Shown piece after piece: positions 967 through 2,666 of a stretch of DNA of 64,000 nucleotides (the stretch's first letter is position 1; each line of letters begins with the position of its first letter). The notes beneath the pieces were generated by a model. It saw only the letters and a list, made by a program, of their open reading frames with translations. It had not been told where the DNA came from and did not search any database. The position numbers were made by a program, and so were the translations under genes. Source of the DNA: Spirochaeta cellobiosiphila DSM 17781 (GTDB taxonomy: Bacteria; Spirochaetota; Spirochaetia; DSM-17781). Location: the NCBI RefSeq assembly GCF_000426705.1, contig NZ_AUFW01000012.1, positions 1 to 64,000 of the forward strand, in the 5' to 3' direction.

Positions 967-1007
967 AAAAAAAAAGAGCTGATGCAGAAAATATCTTCTG
1001 CATCAGC
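967..1007 (-). terminator. Rho-independent terminator of the hsp20 pair
   Basis: A perfect 12-bp stem (978-989 with 996-1007) and a 6-nt loop are followed, in the minus direction, by CTC and a run of nine T (967-975). It lies 16 nt downstream of the hsp20 stop codon and is a strong intrinsic terminator. Confidence 0.9.
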
Positions 1008-1022
1008 CCGGTCTGTAATCGT

Positions 1023-1439
1023 TTACTTAATCTCGATTCGTTTAGGACTAGCTTCAGGTTTTTTAGGAATGGTTATGGTTAAAACACCATTCTTTAATTC
1101 CGCTTTGATCCGATCGTGATCGATGCCTTTAGGTAGTTGGAAAGTCCTTGAGTAGGAAGCTTCGCTTCGTTCTCGAATCAGATAAGACTCTTCCTCTTTT
1201 TCTTCCTTCTCTACCTTTTTGATTGTTGAAAAAGATAATCTGTCATCTTTGATCTCAAGGTTAATATCCTTTTGATCAATACCTGGCAAGTCGGCGATAA
1301 TCTGATATTCGGCATCTTTTTCGACAAAGTCTACGGAAGCTTGGCTTGCACCGTAGGGATTGCCCCAGATACCATCCATCATTCTTTCCACGTCTCTTGC
1401 CCAATCTAGTGCTCTGTTGTTGTTTGCTAAATACCTCAT
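1023..1439 (-). CDS. Small heat-shock protein (Hsp20/alpha-crystallin family), copy 2
   Basis: This 138-residue protein has the alpha-crystallin domain from about residue 35 to the end. It shows the AELKNGVLTITIPK signature (the A-x-x-x-n-GvL motif of Hsp20 proteins) and a C-terminal basic and hydrophobic tail (KRIEIK). Family role: an ATP-independent holdase that binds unfolding proteins in the cytoplasm. It is the second gene of a tandem pair, 17 nt after the upstream paralogue, with its own AGGAGG-like ribosome-binding site just before ATG 1439. The two proteins share the same start (MRYL), the VDFVEKD segment and the GxL motif, so they look like a local duplication. A strong terminator follows. 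Confidence 0.93.
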   Translation of the reverse strand: MRYLANNNRALDWARDVERMMDGIWGNPYGASQASVDFVEKDAEYQIIADLPGIDQKDINLEIKDDRLSFSTIKKVEKEEKEEESYLIRERSEASYSRTFQLPKGIDHDRIKAELKNGVLTITIPKKPEASPKRIEIK

Positions 1440-1456: not shown

Positions 1457-1852
1457 TTATTTTATGTTTATCTTTTTGGGTCCAGCTTCGGGACTCTTTT
1501 TAATGCTTACTGTTAGTATTCCATTCTTCAAATCAGCTTTGATCTGATCCTGATCAGCGTCTTTGGGAAGATTAAAGCTCCTTGTGTAGGATGAACCTGT
1601 CCTTTCCTTTAATAGGTAAGTTACATCCTTTTGCTCTGTTTCTTCTTCTCGCTTTGTTGATAGGGTTAATCTATTGTTATGTACTTCTAGATTAACTTCC
1701 TTTTGGCTTACACCTGGCATATTCGCTATAAGTAGATATTCTGAATCCTTTTCTACAAAATCGATTGCTGGTTCCCTGTTGTAGAAGGAATCACCCCAGA
1801 TGCTATTAGCTAATCTGTCAATGTCACTGTGTGTTTTTACTAAATATCTCAT
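1457..1852 (-). CDS. Small heat-shock protein (Hsp20/alpha-crystallin family), copy 1
   Basis: A 131-residue Hsp20 with the alpha-crystallin domain from about residue 28. The segments IDFVEKDSEYLLIANMPGV and ADLKNGILTVSIKK are diagnostic. It is the first gene of the pair, with an AGGAGG ribosome-binding site upstream of ATG 1852. A sigma-54-type promoter lies 45 nt upstream, an unusual choice for heat-shock chaperones. It is shorter at the N-terminus than its neighbour, so the two copies may differ in oligomer assembly (inference). Function as a holdase chaperone is established for the family. Confidence 0.93.
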   Translation of the reverse strand: MRYLVKTHSDIDRLANSIWGDSFYNREPAIDFVEKDSEYLLIANMPGVSQKEVNLEVHNNRLTLSTKREEETEQKDVTYLLKERTGSSYTRSFNLPKDADQDQIKADLKNGILTVSIKKSPEAGPKKINIK

Positions 1853-1896
1853 AATAATGCCTCCTGCATTAGTTTTATTCTTTTCACTTACTATAA

Positions 1897-1912
1897 TGCA
1901 AAGGCTGTGCCA
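1897..1912 (-). promoter_or_regulatory. Sigma-54 (RpoN) -24/-12 promoter of the hsp20 pair
   Basis: The minus strand reads TGGCACAGCCTTTGCA, which matches the RpoN consensus TGGCAC-N5-TTGCA, including the invariant GG and GC. The predicted transcription start is near 1886, giving a leader of about 33 nt with a good ribosome-binding site before ATG 1852. No well-spaced sigma-70 -35/-10 pair is seen in the same interval. Confidence 0.75.
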
Positions 1913-2012: not shown

Positions 2013-2068
2013 TGTTTCATTTTGACATAGGATCTTTATGACTCATTATATAGTGTCAATATGAAACA
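2013..2068. promoter_or_regulatory. Inverted repeat, candidate enhancer or operator (TGTTTCAT boxes)
   Basis: Two 16-bp arms (2013-2028 and 2053-2068) form an imperfect inverted repeat of TGTTTCATTTTGACAT. A third copy of the TGTTTCAT core lies at 2095-2102, inside the spacer of the plus-strand promoter. The pair sits about 100-170 bp upstream of the sigma-54 promoter at 1897-1912, the usual range for enhancer-binding activators. Another hairpin, AAAGCTCTT with AAGAGCTTT, lies at about 1968-2009. Confidence 0.45.
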
Positions 2069-2080
2069 CTTGCCTTTTTA

Positions 2081-2108
2081 TTGCTAATCTGAAGTGTTTC
2101 ATTATAGA
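2081..2108 (+). promoter_or_regulatory. Promoter of the zinc-ribbon gene
   Basis: TTGCTA and TATAGA are separated by 16 nt. A TGTTTCAT box lies in the spacer, so a regulator bound there could block this promoter. The predicted start is near 2115, about 12 nt before the chosen ATG. Confidence 0.45.
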
Positions 2109-2126
2109 CTAGCGCGAGAGGTAAAT

Positions 2127-2666
2127 ATGAAATGTCCAAATTGTTCTAGTTTTGAATCAAAGCATATCGAGCTTGATAATAGTTTAGAAGCTTATTGCTG
2201 TAGTGAATGTAAGGGTGTATGGATCCCATCACGTAATTATATAAAGTTTGTATCCCAGAATAATTTTTCCTATGAAGGGTTGGATGAAAATATATTTTCC
2301 CTAATATTCTCTGACAAAGATTCTCAAAACGCTAAAGTTTGTCCTGATTGTGGTAAAGCCGTTGTATCAAGTAAAGCAGGCTTTGGTGCCAGCTTCTATG
2401 TTGATAGATGTGACAACTGTTTTGGAATTTGGCTAGATGAAAATGAATGGGAGAAACTAAAAGAAAAAGGTTTGCATACGGCCATTTATTATATGTTCTC
2501 TTCTTCTTGGAAACACAAGGTTAGAAAGCAAACACAAATGGAAATAAAGGTGCAATCTATTAAGGATAACTTTGAACCAGAACAAGCTCAGAAAATCCTT
2601 GATTTTATGAATTGGTTAGTCAATCAAGAAGATAAGGATAAGATTCAAAGTTTTCTCATATCATAG
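2127..2666 (+). CDS. Double zinc-ribbon (zf-TFIIB-like) protein
   Basis: This 179-residue protein starts at ATG 2127 behind a GAGAGG ribosome-binding site; an upstream in-frame ATG at 2094 lies inside the promoter. Two zinc ribbons are visible. The first is CPNC (residues 3-6) with CCSECKGVW near 25-33. The second is CPDC near 73 with CDNCFGIWLDENEWE near 96-110, the usual ending of zf-TFIIB-type single-domain proteins. The last 60 residues are helical and charged. Such proteins bind zinc structurally, and their molecular role is not established. The methyltransferase gene follows after 12 nt, so the two are probably cotranscribed. Confidence 0.75.
   Translation: MKCPNCSSFESKHIELDNSLEAYCCSECKGVWIPSRNYIKFVSQNNFSYEGLDENIFSLIFSDKDSQNAKVCPDCGKAVVSSKAGFGASFYVDRCDNCFGIWLDENEWEKLKEKGLHTAIYYMFSSSWKHKVRKQTQMEIKVQSIKDNFEPEQAQKILDFMNWLVNQEDKDKIQSFLIS

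Follow-up and report, generated by a model that had tools for sequence, protein, structure and literature searches.

A conserved sigma-54 promoter with paired upstream palindromes at the hsp20 loci of Spirochaetia, and an Rrp2 orthologue as its probable activator

Introduction

Which form of RNA polymerase transcribes the hsp20 genes of a spirochaete and, if it is the sigma-54 form, from which sites and by which activator might it be set to work? The window (the whole stretch of 64,000 nucleotides analysed here) contains a pair of hsp20 genes for which an initial annotation had proposed a sigma-54-type promoter, on the grounds of an exact TGGCAC-N5-TTGCA on the minus strand, the right distance to the start codon and the absence of a competing sigma-70 promoter. 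No report on sigma-54 control of spirochaete hsp20 was found in the open literature, most subscription papers being outside the search.

Results

The observed promoter match could be confirmed. TGGCACAGCCTTTGCA at 1912-1897 on the minus strand is the sole exact promoter match in the window, with the GG and GC elements at their fixed spacing within TGGCAC-N5-TTGC[AT]. When position 1898, the C in the GC element, is taken as -12, the start site is predicted at about 1886, which places it 34 nt before the ATG at 1852, a suitable distance. Both downstream open reading frames match PF00011, as the annotation of an hsp20 pair implies, and since the gap between them is only 17 nt they are read as a two-gene operon. 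The features of the locus are as follows.

1897..1912, minus strand: -24/-12 sigma-54 promoter TGGCAC-AGCCT-TTGCA, exact match (GG at 1911-1910, GC at 1899-1898)
1860..1865, minus strand: ribosome-binding site AGGAGG of the first hsp20, identified by sequence
1457..1852, minus strand: promoter-proximal hsp20, 131 aa (PF00011, E=2.4e-24)
1023..1439, minus strand: promoter-distal hsp20, 138 aa (PF00011, E=1.3e-26)
976..1009, minus strand: strong intrinsic terminator ending the operon, 15-pair stem and T run
2127..2666, plus strand: gene of a Zn-ribbon protein, divergent from hsp20 across their common intergenic region (PF13453, E=1.2e-16); listed for context, with no evidence that it belongs to the switch

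Other modes of control were considered. An HrcA/CIRCE-controlled heat-shock operon was rejected, as no match to the CIRCE inverted repeat was found at the operon with up to three mismatches. An RNA thermometer (ROSE and similar) was also rejected: the only Rfam elements in the window are two tRNAs, with none at the hsp20 operon, and the predicted 5' UTR, which contains no known family, is only 34 nt long. Elsewhere in the genome, a CIRCE-like repeat with three mismatches (L325, C27:157634-157660) lies 235 nt before a response-regulator gene rather than a chaperone gene, and is probably due to chance.

A consensus scan of the minus strand from 1850 to 2130 found no sigma-70-type promoter, in agreement with the initial annotation. 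It could still be argued that the -24/-12 match is real and that hsp20 is nevertheless transcribed mainly from another promoter, recognized by the housekeeping or a group-2 sigma factor, with sigma-54 making a minor contribution, because there are no transcription data and the scan was limited to one consensus. We regard this as improbable, given that no sigma-70-like site was found on that strand and that the promoter and the paired sites described below are strongly conserved across many families, which implies selection.

The studied genome (3.95 Mb in 29 contigs) encodes RpoN (Sigma54_AID, E=4.8e-15; TIGR02395, 393 bits against a cut-off of 277) and six full enhancer-binding proteins (EBPs). 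The genome-wide motif scan that had been proposed as a check returned only five exact TGGCAC-N5-TTGCW sites, two of which precede the only two hsp20 loci that a similarity search detected (E <= 1e-20), namely the operon described here and a third hsp20 gene on contig C25 (L004). The other three exact sites lie before an RpoS-type sigma gene (L003, on C24), a gene whose function is unknown (L005) and an open reading frame of doubtful status (L006). When one mismatch was allowed, 81 sites were found, against 30 for a reversed control pattern, and a pattern of 16 bp in which five positions are free does arise by chance. It might therefore be objected that a short consensus picked by eye is such an accident. 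We reject this objection, to which we give almost no credence, because the other hsp20 locus has an exact site too and the promoter is conserved class-wide (53 of 54 loci).

Sites with one mismatch precede nifH, nifV and the gene for a type III glutamine synthetase (identities read from sequence), all of which are ordinary sigma-54 targets. The nifH and nifV sites fall in a nitrogen-fixation cluster (L187, C3:136000-148500) that includes nifH, a NifA-type EBP and an apparent nifV. The exact site of L005 (C27:63211-63226, minus strand) is located 35 nt before the gene of a 218-aa protein, with a 10/12 palindrome of the kind described below at -181, and this gene is a possible further member of the regulon.

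The hsp20 sigma-54 promoter is conserved class-wide in Spirochaetota and scarcely occurs elsewhere. Among Spirochaetota loci from named genomes with enough upstream sequence, a count that overlaps the same-class sets, 53 of 54 have the promoter when up to two mismatches are allowed (34 are exact, 17 differ at one position and 2 at two). The same threshold is met by all 29 hsp20 loci from genomes of the same class (Spirochaetia) and by 13 out of 13 more. By comparison, the promoter was found at only 3 of the 25 loci under other or unstated names (1 exact, 2 with two mismatches), the sole exact site coming from an unclassified bin (L163), and 12 of the 25 lack any GG-N10-GC. A first scan of the genome collection with a single protein query had given no match.

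We regard the proposed sigma-54 control of the hsp20 operon as supported, and the system as larger than the initial annotation suggested. Several lines of evidence for sigma-54 control do not depend on the motif: the presence of rpoN and of six EBPs, the exact site at the second hsp20 locus, the conservation across Spirochaetota, and conserved palindromes with enhancer-like spacing further upstream. Transcription as such is inferred. The palindromes at this locus are as follows.

2013..2029, minus strand: upstream activator site 1, TATGTCAAAATGAAACA, centre at about -135, 11/12 consensus positions; putative, no binding data
2052..2068, minus strand: upstream activator site 2, TGTTTCATATTGACACT, centre at about -174, 39 nt from site 1, 11/12; inverted repeat with site 1
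2095..2111, minus strand: possible weak third site, TAGTCTATAATGAAACA, centre at about -217, 8/12, in the place of the third site of L004

The hsp20 locus on C25 has palindromes centred at -134, -173 and -217, and at hsp20 loci in general the consensus TGTRTCANNNTGAYACA is found between about 100 and 240 bp upstream of the start site. A score of at least 10/12 was reached in 39 of 53 upstream regions, where dinucleotide-preserving shuffles lead one to expect 0.78; the remaining 14 score below 10/12. Furthermore, 24 site pairs in these 53 regions are exactly 40 nt apart (0.18 expected). As 40 bp correspond to about four helical turns, we infer that the paired sites lie on one face of the DNA. 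The palindromes of the studied genome are asymmetric. Their inner 15-mer TGTCAAWAHGAAACA, a pattern written from these same hsp20 sites, matches the genome exactly at two places in each hsp20 locus and nowhere else. A consensus-free search for exact 4-mer palindromes upstream gave only weak signals, none of them present in more than 6 of 51 sequences, and frequent differences between the two arms are the probable reason. The claim that the palindromes are genuine rests on the shuffle test and on the held-out test of sigma genes given below, and not on this search.

A sigma-70-like site, TTGACA-N16-CATTAT at 2022-2049 of the window on the plus strand, faces the divergent Zn-ribbon gene. Since it overlaps upstream site 1, an activator bound there might also affect that gene.

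The palindrome consensus was fixed on the hsp20 loci before any sigma gene was tested. A group-2 sigma-70 gene (L206/L293; L293:920-1780, C24 minus strand), which came to light when the remaining sigma-54 sites of the genome were scanned, has both a sigma-54 promoter and an 11/12 palindrome at -135. Its orthologues in other genomes have, in ten out of ten cases, the promoter with at most one mismatch together with palindromes scoring 9 to 11, many of them in pairs 40 nt apart, and the score is at least 10 in eight of the ten. Two of three more distant members have a full-match promoter and palindromes scoring 9 and 12, the third being weaker, and in a genome of 1.1 Mb the gene has the promoter without palindromes. 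None of six other sigma paralogues tested shows the combination of promoter and palindrome. According to coordinates in six genomes, the group-2 sigma gene is located about 4 to 9 kb from an EBP gene of the Rrp2 type.

This EBP is the candidate activator. Its gene (L184:5665-7041, minus strand) encodes a PF00072 receiver, a PF00158 sigma-54 AAA+ domain with GAFTGA and a PF02954 Fis HTH. In a tree of 35 EBPs from the studied genome and ten hsp20-bearing relatives, from which Borrelia sequences were left out, the Rrp2-type clade (100/99) has exactly one member per genome. The comparison is limited to EBPs that match at E=1e-40 or better, and any that fall in the missing portions of draft genomes escape it. 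We name the Rrp2-type protein as activator because, among the EBP types of the studied genome, it is the only one common to all ten relatives. Its binding to the hsp20 palindromes is inferred by elimination, without binding data. A different EBP, such as the NtrX-like protein (L034), the response regulator (L035) or the GAF-type protein (L037), might instead bind the palindromes while sigma-54 still drives hsp20, as a Fis-type HTH is present in all six EBPs and the palindrome has not been linked to any one of these by experiment. We consider this unlikely, though it remains the alternative to be taken most seriously: according to the tree, there are for each rival type several genomes that lack it and yet carry the promoter and the palindromes, and two relatives with three EBPs each (G052 and G074) share only the Rrp2 type with the studied genome.

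In none of the loci examined was an EBP gene found within 3 kb of hsp20, nor was a strong palindrome, as autoregulation might leave, found near the activator gene of the studied genome. The Rrp2-type EBP is also present in 20 out of 20 tested genomes without a similar hsp20, and must therefore have other targets. Among these 20 are three genomes of one family in which it is the sole EBP match at E <= 1e-40. One of the three, G018, is Borrelia turicatae (100% match of a 30.7-kb plasmid contig).

Judged from sequence, the Rrp2-type EBP is the orthologue of Borrelia Rrp2, because the two are 57% identical over their full length, the adjacent kinases are 37% identical, and the gene order murG-cvpA-holB-kinase-regulator, read from translations, is apparently the same in Borrelia. 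The C-terminal recognition helix, GNKSKTAEILGIGRKTLHRKL, is nearly invariant in Rrp2-type proteins. Its HRK is changed to HNK in Borrelia and to YLK in G076, and the tested promoters of both are without palindromes; G074, with YQK, is an exception in that it has kept the palindrome. The change of the arginine could mark a loss of enhancer binding, although this is no more than a lead. Binding by the Rrp2 family is unproven, because purified Borrelia Rrp2 bound no DNA near rpoS: it did not bind the 238 bp before this gene, and it acts without an enhancer (PMC1976401).

The RpoS-type sigma gene L003 (L190:5618-6460, C24 minus strand) has an exact sigma-54 promoter and follows directly after flagellar genes. 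It groups with Borrelia RpoS (100/99), with caution due to long branches. The L206-type sigma factor was rejected as the Borrelia RpoS orthologue on the basis of this tree, of identity to Borrelia RpoS (40% for L003 against 32% for the L206 type) and of the flagellar-gene neighbourhood. Before L003 and eight presumed orthologues, the promoter is present with at most one mismatch and no palindrome scores above 9; before three Borrelia rpoS genes, the promoter is present and no palindrome scores above 7. The published enhancer-independent activation of rpoS agrees with such palindrome-free promoters.

Discussion

We think it likely that the sigma-54 promoter of hsp20 is driven from the upstream palindromes, most probably by the Rrp2 orthologue and its neighbouring kinase, and that hsp20 represents one branch of a stress cascade. 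The promoter, the spaced and conserved palindromes, rpoN and the orthology of the activator are all read from sequence, whereas the contact between activator and palindromes, ATP-dependent activation and transcription itself are inferred, and the signal is unknown. According to this model, sigma-54 RNA polymerase would wait at 1912-1897 as a closed complex. The Rrp2 orthologue, a response regulator of the NtrC family, would be phosphorylated by the neighbouring, soluble-looking histidine kinase (an Hk2 orthologue), bind two or three palindromes about 135, 174 and 217 bp upstream, loop over and remodel the closed complex using ATP. In Spirochaetia this activator may also turn on the gene of the group-2 sigma-70 factor, again from paired sites of this kind, and that of the RpoS orthologue in their absence. 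If so, the promoter of a heat-shock chaperone would be signal-gated and ATP-dependent throughout a bacterial class, and the Rrp2 family, for which no enhancer sequence was found reported in the open literature searched, would have in the palindrome a candidate target on DNA.

Similar arrangements are known. In the parts of a published survey available to us, chaperone genes, IbpA/Hsp20 among them, have predicted -24/-12 sigma-54 promoters in Planctomycetota and Bacteroidota (PMC12316311). These parts differ from our case in that the phyla named for the cluster are other ones, the chaperone entry for Spirochaetia is another gene (COG0533), and no enhancer or activator is given for the chaperone cluster. 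Enhancer-dependent promoters of the NtrC/PspF type also have paired palindromes 100-220 bp upstream and an NtrC-type activator with receiver, AAA+ domain and Fis HTH; however, the palindrome sequence and the target, hsp20, differ. To our knowledge, the hsp20 palindromes are not NtrC or PspF sites.

The closest parallel is the Rrp2-RpoN-RpoS pathway of Borrelia, in which Rrp2 regulates the RpoS cascade of Lyme disease. Borrelia Rrp2 has a helix-turn-helix domain, yet rpoS, whose promoter is the only one recognised for it, is not known to have a binding site for this protein nearby. Both systems have an orthologous response-regulator EBP and kinase (Hk2) in the same apparent gene order, and in both a sigma-54 promoter precedes an RpoS-type gene downstream of flagellar genes. 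Borrelia differs from the studied genome in having Rrp2 as its sole EBP, which needs no enhancer to activate rpoS (PMC1976401, PMC11109971); in B. burgdorferi, no sigma-54 promoter other than that of rpoS is known (PMC11109971). The studied genome, in contrast, has paired palindromes at hsp20 and at a second sigma gene, with none found before rpoS in either organism. We lean slightly toward the view that Spirochaetia inherited the Rrp2-type two-component system as an ancestral stress switch, predicted to act on hsp20 and the group-2 sigma factor via paired TGTRTCANNNTGAYACA enhancers and on rpoS without them, and that Borrelia lost the enhancer-bearing targets. This inference suggests that enhancer-independent activation of rpoS in Borrelia is a remnant of an older switch for chaperone and stress sigma factor; if it is true, the loss of the enhancer-bearing targets would explain why Rrp2 has kept a DNA-binding domain and yet needs no enhancer at rpoS.
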